From assembly GCA_030683995.1 (NCBI GenBank), contig JAUXPH010000008.1, positions 1 to 49,946 of the forward strand: 49,946 nucleotides of DNA, given 5' to 3'. The translations under genes and the position numbers were made by a program. The notes below the pieces were generated by a model, which saw nothing but the letters and a program-made list of their open reading frames with translations, did no database searches and had not been told where the DNA came from. Of this stretch, positions 19,767 through 26,457 are shown piece after piece; the first letter of the stretch is position 1; every line of letters begins with the position of its first letter. The DNA is from Lutibacter sp. Its GTDB lineage: Bacteria; Bacteroidota; Bacteroidia; Flavobacteriales; Flavobacteriaceae.

Positions 19767-21011
19767 TTAGTCCAGTTCGTTTGGAATTTCTTCAGATTTA
19801 ATAAGTGTTTTTGGCAAAATCAGGTTTAAAATAACGCCAATGACTGAGGCCAATCCTATTCCAGCCAACGAAAAATTACCATAACTCATTTGTGCGCCGC
19901 CAATGCCAATGGTTAAAATTACGGAAACAATCACTTGATTCCTTGTGATGGAAAAATCGGTTTTTGAATCGATCAAAGTTTTAATTCCAATACTTGCAAT
20001 CATTCCAAAAAGCAGCAACATAATGCCGCCCAATACTGCAGGCGGAATGGTTTTTAAAATGGCGCTTATTTTCCCAACCAACGAAAACACAATGGCGGTA
20101 ACAGCGGCAATTCTAAGCACTCTGGGATCGGTAATTTTGGTTAAAGCCACCGCGCCGGTAACTTCAGAATAGGTGGTGTTAGGCGGTCCGCCTAAAAATC
20201 CGGCAAAAGCAGTGGCAATACCGTCTCCCAGCAAGGTGCGATGCAATCCGGGATCTTTCACAAATTCTTTATCTGAAACACCGCTAATGGCGTAAACATC
20301 GCCAATATGTTCAATAATGGGCGCAATGGCAACCGGAATCATATATAAAATGGCGGCCCAATTAAATTCGGGAGCCGTAAAATTTGGAAGCGCAAACCAG
20401 GCAGCTTCGCCAACAGATGAAAAATCGACCAAGCCGGCAAAAAATGAGATGATATAACCAACAATAATTCCAATAAAAATTGGAATCAATTTGATCATTC
20501 CTTTGGTATAAATCACAATAAAAATGGCAGTAATTAAAACCGCAAACGCAATGGGCCAGTTTGATTTTGCCATCCCAACGCCAACGCTGGCTAAAGACAA
20601 TCCAATCACCATAATAACCGGTCCAATCACCACCGAAGGAAATATCTTTTCAATCACTTTTAATCCCCACATTTTTACAACAAAAGACACAACGCCATAC
20701 ACCAAACCAACGGCAATAAGGCCTCCCAAAGTTCCGGGATACCCATACAATTCGGTGGAGGCCACAATCGGCGCGATAAAAGCAAAACTGCTCCCCAAAA
20801 AAATCGGGACTTTTCCTTTGGTAATTACGTGAAAAATAAGCGTTCCAACGCCCGCGGTAAACAACGCAACCGACGGGTCAATGCCAATTAACAAAGGAAC
20901 CAGCACCGTTGCACCAAATGCAACAAATAAAAATTGGATACCAACAATTATGCGCTTTGGGGTGTTCGAAATGATGGCTAAGTTTTGATCTTTGGAAGAT
21001 TTTATGGACAT
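19767..21011 (-). CDS. uraA: UraA-type uracil/xanthine permease
   Basis: A 414-residue inner-membrane NCS2 transporter, with about 14 hydrophobic segments. PKRIIVGIQFLFVAFGATVLVPLLIGIDPS, LGSSFAFIAP, VVIGPVIMVIGLSLA, and the substrate-site segment PIAIAPIIEHIGDVYAISGV (with conserved Glu and His) are typical of UraA/PyrP uracil:H+ symporters. The GGPPNTTYSEVTGAVALT motif is also present. It is convergent with the AzgA-type permease and shares its terminator. Uracil is the best guess; xanthine is possible. Confidence 0.88.
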   Translation of the reverse strand: MSIKSSKDQNLAIISNTPKRIIVGIQFLFVAFGATVLVPLLIGIDPSVALFTAGVGTLIFHVITKGKVPIFLGSSFAFIAPIVASTELYGYPGTLGGLIAVGLVYGVVSFVVKMWGLKVIEKIFPSVVIGPVIMVIGLSLASVGVGMAKSNWPIAFAVLITAIFIVIYTKGMIKLIPIFIGIIVGYIISFFAGLVDFSSVGEAAWFALPNFTAPEFNWAAILYMIPVAIAPIIEHIGDVYAISGVSDKEFVKDPGLHRTLLGDGIATAFAGFLGGPPNTTYSEVTGAVALTKITDPRVLRIAAVTAIVFSLVGKISAILKTIPPAVLGGIMLLLFGMIASIGIKTLIDSKTDFSITRNQVIVSVILTIGIGGAQMSYGNFSLAGIGLASVIGVILNLILPKTLIKSEEIPNELD

Positions 21012-21123: not shown

Positions 21124-21251
21124 TTTTGGGCGTTACCCGCCAGCTGGCGGGTCGGGCCTTTTGTTCCAAACTTTTTTCGCTAAAAAAGCGCAAAAAGGTT
21201 TTCACTTCAGTCCCTAACGCGAATCGAATTACGTCCCGATTTATATCGGGA
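21124..21251 (+). repeat. Dispersed repeat, copy A (GGGCGT...palindrome...CCCTAACGCGAAT) plus adjacent palindrome
   Basis: The order is TTGGGCGTTA, the perfect palindrome CCCGCCAGCTGGCGGG, TCGGGCC and TTTTGTTCC. A hairpin around CGCTAAAAAAGCG follows, then TTCACTTCAGTCCCTAACGCGAAT. At 21235-21250 comes CCCGATTTATATCGGG. The same layout occurs on the other strand at 29672-29784. It occupies the spacer between the UraA-type gene and the hydrogenase protease gene; I see no gene there. Confidence 0.65.
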
Positions 21252-21302: not shown

Positions 21303-21749
21303 CTAACGAAAGTGGTTTTCAATAAAATAGGAGAAACCATTCTTTAAATTTGTTTTTGCCTGTTTTGACAATCCAACTTCAATATTCCATTGATATCCCT
21401 GAATTTTCATCAAATATGCCTTTGGTTTTTTTGTATAAAGAGTTTCGCATAGATTCAAAATTTGGTTTGGAGGAACGGAATGTGTAGAAAAAGAAACTTC
21501 TTTTGAAGGGTAAATGCGTTCAAATGAAAATCCGTCTTTTATTTCCGATTTACAGGCATCAATAAAAATTACAGTTTTATAAGTTGAAATCAATTCTGCA
21601 TCTTCCACCATCAACTGGTATTTATACAGCAAATTATTGGTTTTAAGTCCTTCTTTTTCCAAGAGATCCAAAAACACCCAGCCAAGTCCGTCGTCCTGCC
21701 GCGTGTTATTTCCAATCCCAATAACAAGTGTATTATCTAATTTTTTCAT
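21303..21749 (-). CDS. hoxW: [NiFe]-hydrogenase maturation protease
   Basis: This endopeptidase removes the C-terminal tail of the large subunit after nickel insertion. The ATG at 21749 gives MKKLDNTLVIGIGNNTRQDDGLG, the family start, where the metal-sensing Asp and the GxGN loop are clear; the open frame extends 12 codons further but into HoxH. IDACKS and SFSTHSVPPNQIL carry the second Asp and the His expected at the nickel-binding site. About 148 residues. Its start overlaps the end of hoxH by 17 bases, so it is coupled to its own substrate. The symbol follows the HoxW role in group 3d systems. Confidence 0.9.
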   Translation of the reverse strand: MKKLDNTLVIGIGNNTRQDDGLGWVFLDLLEKEGLKTNNLLYKYQLMVEDAELISTYKTVIFIDACKSEIKDGFSFERIYPSKEVSFSTHSVPPNQILNLCETLYTKKPKAYLMKIQGYQWNIEVGLSKQAKTNLKNGFSYFIENHFR

Positions 21750-23190
21750 CGATGATATTTCGGTAATAATCTTCCAATTGCACAATTAAAGGCATTTCAC
21801 CAAAAGCGTGGGTTGCACAACTCAAACAAGGATCATAAGCCCTGATGGCAATTTCAATCTGGTTCAACATTGGTTCAGTGATTTCCGGTTTGTTATTGAG
21901 TATATTTTTGGCAACTTCCCTAACGCCACGGTTCATCGCTTCGTTATTGTGCGTTGTGGAAACAATTAAATTGCATTTGGTGATCAAGCCTTTTTCATCG
22001 GTATGATATTCGTGAATCAGCGTTCCTCTTGGCGCTTCAATAATACCAATACCTTTTAGTCTTGGAGTGCCTTTTCTCACCAAATCGTTATTCATCAACG
22101 TGTCATCCAGCAAAAATTCTTTCATCGCTTCAGCACTGTACAACAATTCAATCAATCGTGCCCAATGGGTATGCATCGTCATATTGTTGGGTTTGTTATT
22201 GGTATATTCTTTAAATATTTGTCGTTCTTTTTCGGCAAGTGGCGTTCCCATATAAGCGCAGGTATTCAATCGGGCCAATGGTCCAACACGGTTCCATCCA
22301 TTTTCCCTGCCATATTTTGTCATATACGGAAATTTCAAATAGGACCAGGGTTCAACAGCTTCTTTAAAGTGATCGCGATAATCAACATCGGCAATATTAA
22401 GCAACTCATTTCCTTCAGAATCTATAGATCTTAACCTGCCGTCATACAATTCAAAAGCGCCGGTTTCTTTGCGCACCAAACTCAAATGATTGGACGGATA
22501 AGCGGCGAAATTGTCAAGCCACGTTGCGTTTTCAAGATAATAGGTTTTAATAAAATCAATCATTTCTTTGGACCAGGAAATCATGGTGTCAACGTTTGGA
22601 ATCAGCATTCCGTCCAAGAAATAGGCACGTTCTTCAGCTTTAAATGTTTTATGAACGCCTCCCGGCACCGCTAAAATTCCGTGAATTTTTTTTCCAGCCA
22701 ATGCTTTAATGATTTCCTGCCCAAATTTTCGCATCAAAATGCCTTTTTTTGCGAGCTCCCTATTTTCGGCAGCAACGGCAACAACATTTCTTTTTTCCGC
22801 AGGGGCGTTAATTCCGAACAGAAGATCGGGTGAAGCCAAATAAAAAAAATGCAAGGCGTGCGACTGAAAAACTTGTCCGAAATGCAGTAATTTCCTCAAT
22901 TTTGTGGCAGTTGGCGATAAATTTTCTGGGTCGATCCCTACCAATTGGTCGATGGCTTTTGCGGCTGCCAAATGGTGGCTTACCGGACATATACCGCAAA
23001 GCCGTTGCACCAAAACCGGTGCTTCCCAATATGGATGTCCCTGAATAAATTTTTCAAATCCCCTAAATTCCACTATGTGCAAAAAGGCATCGCTCACAAC
23101 GCCGTTTTCGTCAAGTTTTATGGTCACTTTTCCGTGTCCTTCAACACGTGTAATAGGATCTATAATTATTTTTCTTGGGCCCATTTGCAA
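21733..23190 (-). CDS. hoxH: NAD-reducing [NiFe]-hydrogenase large subunit
   Basis: This subunit holds the Ni-Fe active site. In 485 residues it shows RVEGHG near residue 15, the first ligand pair C65-G-I-C68 in RLCGICPVSHH and the second pair C455/C458 in D-P-C-L-S-C-A-T-H461. A 24-residue tail after H461 is the expected target of the maturation protease encoded next. Sequence style (DPCLSCATHAFGEMPL) matches group 3 cytoplasmic enzymes, 3d by company with HoxF/U/Y. An ATG two codons inside (MGPRK) is an equally good start. It lies 12 bases after the HoxU-HoxY fusion gene. Confidence 0.96.
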   Translation of the reverse strand: MQMGPRKIIIDPITRVEGHGKVTIKLDENGVVSDAFLHIVEFRGFEKFIQGHPYWEAPVLVQRLCGICPVSHHLAAAKAIDQLVGIDPENLSPTATKLRKLLHFGQVFQSHALHFFYLASPDLLFGINAPAEKRNVVAVAAENRELAKKGILMRKFGQEIIKALAGKKIHGILAVPGGVHKTFKAEERAYFLDGMLIPNVDTMISWSKEMIDFIKTYYLENATWLDNFAAYPSNHLSLVRKETGAFELYDGRLRSIDSEGNELLNIADVDYRDHFKEAVEPWSYLKFPYMTKYGRENGWNRVGPLARLNTCAYMGTPLAEKERQIFKEYTNNKPNNMTMHTHWARLIELLYSAEAMKEFLLDDTLMNNDLVRKGTPRLKGIGIIEAPRGTLIHEYHTDEKGLITKCNLIVSTTHNNEAMNRGVREVAKNILNNKPEITEPMLNQIEIAIRAYDPCLSCATHAFGEMPLIVQLEDYYRNIIDEKIR

Positions 23191-23202: not shown

Positions 23203-24465
23203 TTAGTCATACTTGTATTTAGGATAAGCAATGGAATATTCTTCTTGAAATAAAATGTTTTTGACCACATTCCAGATATGGTTGGCATCCGGCGGGCATC
23301 CCGGAATATGATGGTCTATTTTTACGATTTCATGATTGGCATACACGTTGTTTAAAATTTTGGGAATGTCTTCATGATTTGGAATTATCGTTTCATTTTC
23401 CTCACTCGTCATCGAATCCAGATAAGACTCTTTTAAACATGCTTCCAAAGGAAAAGTATTTCTCATCGCCGGCAATCCGCCCCAAATGGCACATTCTCCA
23501 ACAGAAACCAAGATGTCGCAATTTTTCCTGAATTCGCGCAGCACTTCAATATTATGGGTGTTGCAGCAACCGCCTTCAATAAGTCCGATATCGCAATGTT
23601 TGCTAAAATTCTTTATGTCGGTGATGGGGCTTTTATTAAATTCAACAACTTCAAATAAATCGAGAATGCCTAAATCCACATCGAGCATCGACATATGGCA
23701 TCCAAAACAGCCGGCGAGTGAAGTGGTAGCGACAATTTTCTTTTTAATATTGGTTCTGTGTTTTTTTACGGGATTTAAGGACATTGATTTTTCTTCTGTA
23801 ACTATATCAAATTTTCTGTCTCCAAATGGTTTGCTGAAGGATTTTCCCTTGACTAAAATGGCGCCGGTCGGACAAATTTGCATGGCATGCGCAGCCTGTA
23901 ATTCCGATAATTTTGCTTCTTGTTCATAATCAACGGAAACCATGGTTTTATTTCCTTTGTTGATGGAATAAAATATGTTGTAGCCGTCAAAAGTTTTTAC
24001 TTCTTCAATGCAACGTCTGCATTTAATGCACCTGTTTTGGTTTACCACAATACGTTCAGGACGCGCATCGGTAATTCTGTCAATAAATAAATGCGGAAAT
24101 CGTGTGTATTTTATGCCGGTTTCATAGCCTAAATTTTGCATTTGGCAATCCCCGCTTTTTTCGCAGGAAGGGCAAAAATGATTTCCCTCAACAAACATCA
24201 TTTCTATAATGGCTTTCCGGGTATCCAACAATTCTGGGGTGTTCACTTCTATTTCCATTCCATCAGCTACGCGAACGGTGCAACCAGCAACATCGCGACC
24301 GTTTAATTTTACAGTGCAAACCCTGCAGGTTCCTAGCGGATCTAAATGTTTAAAATGGCACAAGGTTGGAATAAAAACACCGTTTTGTTTAGCGGCTTCT
24401 ATTAAATTTAATCCTGTTTCGGCTGTGCAAATTCTTCCGTCTATTTTAAATGAACTCGTTTTCAT
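23203..24465 (-). CDS. hoxUY: HoxU-HoxY fusion: diaphorase Fe-S subunit joined to hydrogenase small subunit
   Basis: One continuous 420-residue frame carries two subunits that are normally separate. Residues 1-228 match HoxU: a [2Fe-2S] set C36/C47/C50/C62, an H96-x-C98-x2-C101-x5-C107 cluster site, and C146/C149/C152 with C198 for a [4Fe-4S] cluster. A basic linker (about 229-243) leads to residues 244-420, which match HoxY: C253-F-G-C256, C325 in VGECAIWGG, and C390 in IPGCPPD, all four ligands of the proximal cluster. The protein would pass electrons from the Ni-Fe site to HoxF. No stop, frameshift signal or damaged ligand is seen, so the fusion looks functional. Confidence 0.95.
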   Translation of the reverse strand: MKTSSFKIDGRICTAETGLNLIEAAKQNGVFIPTLCHFKHLDPLGTCRVCTVKLNGRDVAGCTVRVADGMEIEVNTPELLDTRKAIIEMMFVEGNHFCPSCEKSGDCQMQNLGYETGIKYTRFPHLFIDRITDARPERIVVNQNRCIKCRRCIEEVKTFDGYNIFYSINKGNKTMVSVDYEQEAKLSELQAAHAMQICPTGAILVKGKSFSKPFGDRKFDIVTEEKSMSLNPVKKHRTNIKKKIVATTSLAGCFGCHMSMLDVDLGILDLFEVVEFNKSPITDIKNFSKHCDIGLIEGGCCNTHNIEVLREFRKNCDILVSVGECAIWGGLPAMRNTFPLEACLKESYLDSMTSEENETIIPNHEDIPKILNNVYANHEIVKIDHHIPGCPPDANHIWNVVKNILFQEEYSIAYPKYKYD

Positions 24466-24729
24466 GGGTATTTTTATATTATAAATAATTAATTACCAGG
24501 TATTTAATATTTTTAATTTTCATAAATAAAAACTCACAACTTGAACTTTTTATCCTAACCTCAGATCTTTCCTTCCCGACAGCTATCTGGAGAAAGGGAG
24601 TTTGTTTTTAAAAAACCTTTAACCTTTAACTTTTAACTTTTAACTTTTTAACGCCCAACGCGCCGGCTGGCCCAATCGCTAAAAACAGCTACCAGCTATT
24701 TTTTTAACGATCTGTCCCCCCTTTGGGGG
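24466..24729. repeat. Spacer inside the hydrogenase operon with AT heptamer repeats and palindrome remnants
   Basis: Between hoxF and hoxUY. Near 24616-24651 ACCTTTAACC is followed by several TTTAACT units. At 24575-24590 CCCGACAGCTATCTGG is a worn version of the CCCGATAGCTATCGGG palindrome. Next to the hoxF stop is a C/G-rich stem of the CCCCCTAACCCCCAAAGGGGG type. No gene is seen. Confidence 0.5.
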
Positions 24730-26457
24730 TTAGGGGGCCTGCGTATCCTTTATCAAAGAATCATAGTTATAAACAGCAGCTTCCATATCAAATTCCACGT
24801 TTAAATTTTCATTGGTTTTTATAATTTTTTGATTGAAATATCCTTCAAACTTATCAAGTGCCATCACAAGTGTATTTGCGGAAAATTGACCCAATCCGCA
24901 CCTGCTGGTGAGTTTGATGATTTTACCCCATTCCTTAATTTCTTCTAAATCCTGCGCGGTACAAATCCCTTTTTTAATTTTCTTGATTTTTTCGTGTAAA
25001 ATCTGATTTCCGGCGCGGCAAGGGGTGCAAACACCGCAAGATTCCTCTTTAAAAAACGTGGTGTAGTTCTCCAAAATTTTTGTGATGCTTCTGAAATTGT
25101 TAAAAACCATAATAGATCCGGCGCAGATTAAATCTTCCTTGCATATTTTACGATCAAATTCGGTGTTGTTGATACAGATGCCCGACGGACCGCTAATTTG
25201 AACAAAATGTGGTGATGTAGCCTGGCAGAGGTGTAAAATTTCTTTCATGGTCATTCCCCATTCAATTTCATAAATTCCAGGTTTTGCAACATCGCCAGAT
25301 ATACTCAATACTTTGGTTCCTTTGCTTTCTTTGGTGCCGATAGTTGAAATAAAATGGGTGCCCAATTCAATGATTCTGGCCGCCATGGCAAAAGTTTCCA
25401 CATTATTAACGATGGTAGAGCAGCCAAAATAGCCAAATTCTGTTGGGTAATATTTTTTAATTCTTGCTTCGCCTCGTTTTCCTTCCAAAGATTCAATTAA
25501 AGCCGATTCTTCGCCGCAAATATAAGCGCCTGCGCCAACCTGAATTTGTATGCTAAAATTAAATTTTGGAATGCCAAGGATATCGTTCCCCAAAAGATTA
25601 TTTTCTTGAAATTCATGAAGGGTATTTTCTATTTTTTCAAGCAAATACATGTATTCAGCACGCAAATAAATAAAACCGGTGGTAGCACCGGAAATGTAGG
25701 CCGCCACAATCATTCCTTCAATAACCAATCCGGACAGATTGTTAAGCAATGATTTGTCTTTAAAAGTTCCGGGCTCACCTTCATCGGCATTGCAGATAAT
25801 GTATTTTTTTGAAGTGGAACTTTCTTTGCTGCTTTTCCACTTTTTGGCTGTTGGAAAAAATGCGCCGCCGCGACCTTCGAGATTGGCTGCTGAAATAAGA
25901 TTTAAAATCTCATCAGGCGTATGGTTTTTTAATTTTTTCAGGGCAATTCCCATTTCGTATTTTCGAAAGAAAATCGTTTTGTCGTCCGCAGGCAAATATT
26001 GTATTTTACTGGTCGGATTGCTGGAAATAAAACGCAGTGAATTTCCGTTTTTCAGTTGTTGGATAATTGTTTTTACTTTTTCGGGCGTTAGATTGGTAAA
26101 CGGAAAAAAGTTAATCAAGGCAGCAGGTTCCTGATCGCTTAATCCGATGCAGGAAGTCTCAAACAGCGAAAAGAGCGGATTTTCATCATAACTGCCAAAA
26201 GTGCATCCTGTTTCTTTTTCAAAAGCGGCTTTTATTTGCTGAAAGCCTTTGAACTCTGAAATAATGCTGTTGTTTAAATAAATGATGTATTTTCCTGTGG
26301 GTTGGCGGTGGAAAAAATGGTAAAATGAAACCACGCCTTCAATTTCTATTTTTGAAACACTTAATTTTTGGGCAATTTGCGCAATGGCATTTTCTGAAAC
26401 ATAACCAAATTTATTTTGAAACTCCCAAAGTTTGTTTAAAAGACCTGTTCTATTCAT
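24730..26457 (-). CDS. hoxF: NAD-reducing hydrogenase diaphorase subunit, NuoE-like plus NuoF-like domains
   Basis: A 575-residue protein. Residues 1-150 form a 24-kDa (NuoE)-like domain, and residues 160-545 the 51-kDa (NuoF)-like domain with the FMN motif starting G195-R-G-G-A and ending FPTAKKW, the NADH-site GAGAYICGEESAL, and a [4Fe-4S] site C474/C477/C480 with C520. In the NuoE-like part only C103 (SCIGLSDQEP) remains of the four [2Fe-2S] ligands. HoxF exchanges electrons with NAD(H) and hands them to HoxU. It is the first gene of the operon. The last codons and stop lie in a G/C-rich repeat, so the C-terminus may be altered. Confidence 0.95.
   Translation of the reverse strand: MNRTGLLNKLWEFQNKFGYVSENAIAQIAQKLSVSKIEIEGVVSFYHFFHRQPTGKYIIYLNNSIISEFKGFQQIKAAFEKETGCTFGSYDENPLFSLFETSCIGLSDQEPAALINFFPFTNLTPEKVKTIIQQLKNGNSLRFISSNPTSKIQYLPADDKTIFFRKYEMGIALKKLKNHTPDEILNLISAANLEGRGGAFFPTAKKWKSSKESSTSKKYIICNADEGEPGTFKDKSLLNNLSGLVIEGMIVAAYISGATTGFIYLRAEYMYLLEKIENTLHEFQENNLLGNDILGIPKFNFSIQIQVGAGAYICGEESALIESLEGKRGEARIKKYYPTEFGYFGCSTIVNNVETFAMAARIIELGTHFISTIGTKESKGTKVLSISGDVAKPGIYEIEWGMTMKEILHLCQATSPHFVQISGPSGICINNTEFDRKICKEDLICAGSIMVFNNFRSITKILENYTTFFKEESCGVCTPCRAGNQILHEKIKKIKKGICTAQDLEEIKEWGKIIKLTSRCGLGQFSANTLVMALDKFEGYFNQKIIKTNENLNVEFDMEAAVYNYDSLIKDTQAP

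Follow-up and report, generated by a model that had tools for sequence, protein, structure and literature searches.

We describe here a hydrogenase gene cluster on a contig of a Lutibacter sp. assembly (GenBank GCA_030683995.1, contig JAUXPH010000008.1); the whole stretch of 49,946 nucleotides analyzed is called the window. The cluster is compact, lies on the reverse strand, and reads hoxEF-hoxUY-hoxH-hoxW. The hoxEF gene (24730 to 26457) encodes a HoxE-like thioredoxin domain and HoxF, with NADH/FMN and 4Fe-4S domains (PF01257, PF01512, and PF10589). A 264-nt spacer (24466 to 24729) separates it from the fused gene hoxUY (23203 to 24465), which is followed by hoxH, encoding the [NiFe] large subunit (21733 to 23190; PF00374). 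The end of hoxH is overlapped by a gene for a HoxW-like maturation endopeptidase of the TIGR00072 superfamily (21303 to 21785), whose product scores 66.4 bits against NCBIfam TIGR00072 (cut-off, 47.45) and has no Pfam match at 0.001. With HoxE joined to HoxF and HoxU joined to HoxY, the cluster therefore encodes three structural subunits rather than four or five. Directly downstream of hoxW lies a Flavo-1 RNA (RF01705, 52.4 bits; 21146 to 21228, reverse strand), and the next frame of at least 90 aa on the hox strand, 414 aa long, occupies 19767 to 21011.

The hoxUY gene starts with ATG and encodes 420 aa plus a stop, as defined by the open reading frame list, Pfam, and sequence matches to the PDB. 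Residues 1 to 222 (23800 to 24465, reverse strand) form the HoxU part and residues 242 to 420 (23206 to 23742, reverse strand) the HoxY part; between them lies a 19-aa linker, residues 223 to 241 (23743 to 23799, reverse strand). Four Pfam domains occur in the one chain: Fer2_4 (5 to 76), NADH-G_4Fe-4S_3 (83 to 121), Fer4_Nqo3 (139 to 203), and Oxidored_q6 (253 to 402). In the PDB sequence search, residues 5 to 222 align with chain B and residues 242 to 420 with chain C of 5xf9, which together with 5xfa we take to be the NAD-reducing [NiFe] hydrogenase HoxFUYH of Hydrogenophilus thermoluteolus. These alignments and the cluster ligands delimit the two parts. An earlier note on this DNA had proposed that HoxU and HoxY share one frame with every cluster ligand intact, and this holds: all 16 ligands are present in a single frame of 420 codons. 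The HoxU part carries C36/47/50/62, H96/C98/101/107, and C146/149/152/198, and the HoxY part carries the proximal cluster ligands C253/256/325/390. From family knowledge, we take the first HoxU set to bind a [2Fe-2S] cluster and the other two to bind [4Fe-4S] clusters. Across 65 distinct fused proteins (window included), 15 of the 16 ligands are identical in every protein and C36 is kept in 64, the remaining sequence (L005) being cut by a contig end. The fusion of HoxU and HoxY in the window is confirmed as real. The best PDB sequence match of the HoxY part is 5xf9 (169 bits); the HoxU part scores slightly higher against NiFe-HydA (7t2r_A, 137 bits) than against 5xf9_B (130 bits). The NCBIfam HoxU model PRK07569 is the top match of HoxUY, yet the fused protein falls below the cut-off (168 versus 333 bits), and annotation would benefit from recognition of the fused form. 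Searched with the fused protein, the Lutibacter assembly yields no further pair of HoxU and HoxY; the one other hit is a 28% match in a 909-aa frame.

On its sequence features, the window enzyme is a predicted NAD-linked [NiFe] hydrogenase of the group 3d type. HoxH has the motifs RLCGIC and DPCLSCATH and a C-terminal extension past the final His, with the hoxW-like gene adjoining, and cleavage of the extension is predicted. It is 50% identical to Cupriavidus necator HoxH, and its top PDB sequence match is 5xf9_D, at 506 bits versus 393 bits for the methyl-viologen-reducing enzyme. HoxY is of the short kind, with Oxidored_q6 and four ligands and without NiFe_hyd_SSU_C in the HoxY part. A diaphorase module is present as HoxU (NuoG N-terminal) and HoxF (NuoF), by Pfam and by 5xf9 chains B and A. 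The top PDB match of HoxEF is 5xf9_A (336 bits), aligned from residue 4, so that the HoxE-like domain is covered; this domain keeps one of the four cluster cysteines of cyanobacterial HoxE in an alignment with C. necator HoxF and Acaryochloris HoxE. In place of the separate HoxU and HoxY usual in group 3d there is one 420-aa frame, and since separation is the usual rather than the defining state, we treat the enzyme as a variant of this group. The trees described below comprise only relatives found with the query, C. necator included, plus Acaryochloris in the HoxH tree.

In some Lutibacter and Winogradskyella relatives, two tandem hoxEF-like frames precede hoxUY (L032 2256-3983, L033 2264-3991, L036 2227-3993, and L240 4742-6472). 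In the Lutibacter sister loci L032 and L033, the first hoxEF copy is separated from hoxUY by the second; the frame farther upstream is partial in L036 (1-750). In its NADH/FMN loop, the copy adjoining hoxUY reads GLGGA instead of GRGGA (L032, L033, and L036 compared). The window, L035, L037, and L241 have a single hoxEF, and over the HoxF part the window protein is nearer to the non-adjoining type of L032 and L033 (70 to 72% versus 57 to 58%). Two diaphorase subunits for one HoxUY are worth study.

Elsewhere in the Lutibacter assembly, contig C32 encodes a second [NiFe] hydrogenase, of the membrane type (locus L238, 2993-7354), comprising small and large subunits, cytochrome b, and a HycI-type protease. 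Contig C53 carries hypF, hypD, and a gene for a hypE-like AIRS protein, so maturation genes are present. On contig C46 (2744-5241), a HoxF-like frame (32%) stands beside a 909-aa NuoG/HoxU-like frame (28%); this pair is perhaps an NAD-linked formate dehydrogenase.

HoxUY was modeled with AlphaFold2 in two runs, with 50 and 78 aligned sequences, and the models are weak (mean pLDDT, 64.8 and 71.6; pTM, 0.45 and 0.50). In the better one, HoxU is good over residues 1 to 90 and 131 to 210, residues 213 to 239 have pLDDT below 50, and HoxY is weak. Foldseek with the weak model matched the HoxU part to 5xf9_B (TM by target, 0.74) and the HoxY part to 5xf9_C (0.63), matches of separate parts that have no bearing on how the domains are placed relative to each other. 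The top match by E value was 8a6t_A, an FeFe-hydrogenase subunit that shares HoxU-like domains.

Within the same family, HoxUY was found in 14 of 299 genomes (the source genome included) at 15 places, every one a single frame without stops; one is cut by a contig end, and the 14 places besides the window show 57 to 79% identity. Of the 584 loci confirmed when named genomes were scanned, the best 80 have hoxU and hoxY fused in 51 cases and apart in 29. The titles of fused records name Lutibacter, Winogradskyella, Lutimonas, Ginsengibacter, Pontibacter, and Botryobacter, and fused MAGs are labeled Flavobacteriaceae, Cytophagales, Cyclobacteriaceae, Chitinophagaceae, Saprospiraceae, Balneolaceae, Rhodothermaceae, Chlorobiota, and, in one case, Acidobacteria. 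A fused protein in the Bacteroidales sample (G892) is shared with the Chlorobiota-labeled MAG (L075), and Chlorobiota is therefore used here as a label and not as firm taxonomy. In one Balneolales MAG (L098), hoxU and hoxY are separate.

Further groups were surveyed with the HoxY half alone as the query (E at most 1e-20), so that fused genes were not favored. In the order of a Bacteroidales MAG, HoxY was found in 43 of 247 genomes, with 3 fused frames, 38 short frames, and 2 cut ones; 13 of the 43 places were classed by frame length alone (128 to 203 aa, two at contig ends). HoxY occurs in 36 of 247 genomes, at 40 places, in the phylum of the Acidobacteria MAG; a Saccharicenans MAG (L080) is part of this sample. 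Among the 32 inspected with their sequence, 1 is fused, 30 are separate, and 1 has no HoxU in reach, and the other 8 were classed by frame length alone (189 to 340 aa, 32 to 39% identity). Two Acidobacteriota frames of 428 and 418 aa (L244 and L245), considered as fusions, were both separate on inspection. The phylum of a Spirochaetes MAG has HoxY in 35 of 198 genomes; all 20 places inspected are separate, and 15 of the 35 were classed by frame length alone (187 to 299 aa). In the order of Ginsengibacter, with HoxY in 8 of 198 genomes, 6 are fused and 2 separate; the 2 are distant (36 to 38% identity), and the close homologs are fused in 6 of 6 cases. Among the matches listed for a phylum-wide sample of 395 genomes, 7 are fused, and at least 17 genomes have separate genes. 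In a plasmid collection, 4 of 344 matching records cover at least 80% of the query; the three inspected (C. necator pHG1, Lichenicola, and Acaryochloris) all have separate genes, and the fourth is another C. necator H16 record. Carriers of the fusion are mainly Bacteroidota and neighbors; separate genes prevail almost throughout the Bacteroidales, Acidobacteriota, and Spirochaetota samples. The earlier premise that separate hoxU and hoxY are the normal state is thus borne out by the C. necator, Lichenicola, and Acaryochloris records and by most of these three samples.

Two quick trees, with SH-aLRT as their only support and without use of the fused gene itself, were built from the relatives. 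The HoxH tree has 111 rows (106 different), midpoint rooted, with 68 fused and 43 separate; it holds 111 of about 120 classified rows, with L001 (the window again) dropped and rows without a 250-aa HoxH match or without both U and Y left out. A single branch, at 100% SH-aLRT, sets the 68 fused rows apart, with one change of state. The HoxF+HoxH tree, of 52 rows from loci chosen by hand and rooted on C. necator, places its 28 fused rows in one clade with 100% SH-aLRT, apart from 24 separate rows. Neither tree has a separate row inside the fused group. Long branches are borne by L094 and two plasmid rows in the HoxF+HoxH tree and by eight rows in the HoxH tree. Mapping on a hydrogenase tree had been proposed in advance, and on these trees of relatives the fused rows form one group; with this support, one fusion event suffices. 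The fusion is taken as derived because outgroup and sister rows are separate. It is old and clade-wide and appears to have been acquired once. L094 (50% identity over the full-length query) and L145 and L203 (62% over HoxY) were considered as fusions of separate origin, but all three belong to the one fused clade of the HoxF+HoxH tree. The only Acidobacteria-labeled fused case (L047 4001-5260, an SZAS-13 MAG) groups with flavobacterial rows in each tree, a placement that may reflect horizontal transfer or a binning error.

The linker was compared across the 65 distinct fused proteins, with 13 duplicates removed and L230 to L235 outside the count. Its sequence is variable, rich in K, E, and N, and without stops, and its length stays within 18 to 25 aa (19 to 21 aa in 55 of 65). 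Between residue 222 of HoxU and residue 242 of HoxY, the fused genes span 54 to 75 nt (median, 60). The equivalent distance in 100 separate loci with at least 46% HoxY identity is 45 to 75 nt in 93 (median, 59; range, 41 to 157), and in distant separate relatives (L117 to L133; 33 to 52% HoxY identity) it is 45 to 75 nt in 2 of 17. As the junction is about equally long in near separate relatives, loss of one stop codon could make the fusion. Near separate pairs chosen by HoxY alone are in the same frame in 25 of 71 cases, about as expected by chance (Bacteroidales, 10 of 27; Acidobacteriota, 6 of 24; Spirochaetota, 9 of 20). An in-frame arrangement in all 29 separate loci of the named-genome scan was considered as a signal and set aside: tblastn gives a single in-frame segment a higher score, so that the ranking was suspected of bias, and the pairs chosen by HoxY alone give 25 of 71.

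In this enzyme family, electrons pass between the Ni-Fe site and NAD+ by way of the HoxY cluster, the HoxU clusters, the HoxF cluster, and FMN. HoxUY very probably serves as the central electron relay in a soluble NAD-linked [NiFe] hydrogenase of three subunits. We propose that hoxU and hoxY were once neighbors in the same frame, a few codons apart, and that loss of the hoxU stop would have joined both. In the resulting complex, presumably matured by HoxW, electrons would travel from the Ni-Fe site of HoxH to the HoxY cluster, on to the HoxU clusters of the same chain, and through the HoxF cluster and FMN to NAD+, or in reverse. The linker would hold the diaphorase and hydrogenase halves together and fix their ratio at 1:1, and the joint would keep a short cluster-to-cluster path between them. 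Neither half could then leave the complex, and a free diaphorase (HoxEF-U) pool would be impossible. That the fusion locks the two enzyme halves together, as the earlier note held, would follow from the covalent linkage.

The joining of the genes may have had no functional consequence at all. Under such neutrality, a real fusion would stem from a single stop loss and persist since a new stop and a new start would have to arise together before the genes could separate again; we regard this as plausible, though short of probable. It agrees with the near-equal junction lengths of fused and near separate genes, the chance-level frequency of in-frame pairs, the variable linker sequence, and the sufficiency of one event in both trees. 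The complete lack of separate rows inside the fused group and the constancy of linker length speak against it, although neutrality is still compatible with both, and a neutral origin and persistence fits all the data.

A functional gain is possible but somewhat doubtful: the fusion may have founded a lineage of three-subunit hydrogenases that is unable to split into free halves and has a measurable advantage in assembly or stability. Passages of PMC3189943 describe the Rhodococcus opacus enzyme as splitting easily in vitro and that of R. eutropha as not doing so, and passages of PMC7363133 describe ready dissociation of Synechocystis HoxEFUYH, with about 23% of HoxF in HoxEFU. If the gain is real, HoxUY would represent nature's own covalent answer to the dissociation of modules that is known from the Rhodococcus and cyanobacterial enzymes.

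An effect on oxygen behavior, also suggested in advance, is unlikely to have driven the fusion, whether as O2 tolerance or as quicker reactivation of the Ni-Fe site with electrons from NADH. Several fused carriers belong to genera that we take to be aerobic, which counts in its favor, and passages on related enzymes propose that reverse electron flow from NADH through the relay reactivates the site (PMC12809855 and PMC3189943). However, the R. eutropha enzyme, with HoxU and HoxY separate, is already called oxygen tolerant in a passage of PMC3189943, and the fusion is therefore not required for tolerance. It is quite improbable that the cell contains HoxU and HoxY as separate proteins, whether through cleavage of the product or through an internal start that also yields HoxY. 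The linker is K/E-rich and modeled with low confidence, residue 228 of the window protein, within the linker, is encoded by ATG, and an ATG, GTG, or TTG occurs in 25 of 65 linkers (ATG in 14), but 51 lack ATG, 40 lack all three codons, and no internal start is conserved in position. The earlier note's alternative of an assembly frameshift, in which the read data would hold a stop or frameshift lost between hoxU and hoxY, is rejected as practically excluded, as the same open frame recurs across many independent assemblies in the family sample and the named-genome scan, including named-strain records of Lutibacter citreus, Lutibacter agarilyticus, Winogradskyella alexanderae, Ginsengibacter hankyongi, and Pontibacter ruber.

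Full-text literature searches, with subscription papers outside their scope, returned no description of a HoxU-HoxY fusion in the titles and abstract openings of the papers found, and none appears in the hydrogenase passages of PMC2974642, PMC12809855, PMC8880783, PMC3189943, PMC7363133, and PMC10369191. Fusions of other kinds occur in such passages: HydB-HydC/HoxF (PMC8880783), HoxF described as a fusion of Nqo1 and Nqo2 (PMC3189943), and engineered fusions, e.g., PsaD-HoxYH (PMC10369191). The earlier note had allowed that the fusion might be an already described standard form; it is standard within genomes of the clade (15 of 15 family places and 6 of 6 close homologs in the order of Ginsengibacter), but a description was not found in the passages covered. 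The window enzyme is best described, from its genes, as a three-subunit variant of a known soluble hydrogenase produced by a genuine, old, clade-wide fusion. A passage of PMC7363133 treats a separate cellular role of the Hox diaphorase half as an open question in cyanobacteria, and a natural lineage with both halves in one chain offers a ready comparison; it suggests that module separation is dispensable in the fused lineage. HoxUY is also a candidate tethered enzyme for H2-driven NADH recycling, in which subunit loss during purification may be a practical problem according to a passage of PMC12809855.

Among known systems, the HoxFUYH of H. thermoluteolus, an enzyme named in a passage of PMC8880783, is the best PDB sequence match for the window HoxH, HoxEF, and HoxY part and a strong one for the HoxU part, but it has HoxU as chain B and HoxY as chain C, whereas in the window one chain comprises both. 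The soluble hydrogenase of C. necator (Ralstonia eutropha) pHG1 has the gene order F-U-Y-H-protease, as in the window, and its HoxF has a HoxE-like domain with one of four cluster cysteines, as in the window HoxEF. In contrast, its hoxU and hoxY are two genes that lie in different frames and share 4 nt, and its protease gene is followed by a cyclic-nucleotide-domain gene, presumably hoxI, where the window has the 414-aa frame instead. The cyanobacterial bidirectional hydrogenase HoxEFUYH has the same five modules as the window, but (e.g., in Acaryochloris) as separate genes and with a four-cysteine HoxE, against fused genes and one cysteine in the window. Synechocystis HoxEFU exists free of HoxYH, according to a passage of PMC7363133, a state that the HoxUY fusion would forbid. 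In NiFe-HydABCSL (PDB 7t2r), which gives best or second-best PDB matches, the HydA N terminus resembles HoxU, HydS resembles HoxY, and HydL resembles HoxH. As described in passages of PMC8880783, that enzyme is electron bifurcating, its HydA, at 692 aa, is much longer and is not joined to HydS, and HydB and HydC are distinct proteins, whereas the window has HoxE and HoxF fused.
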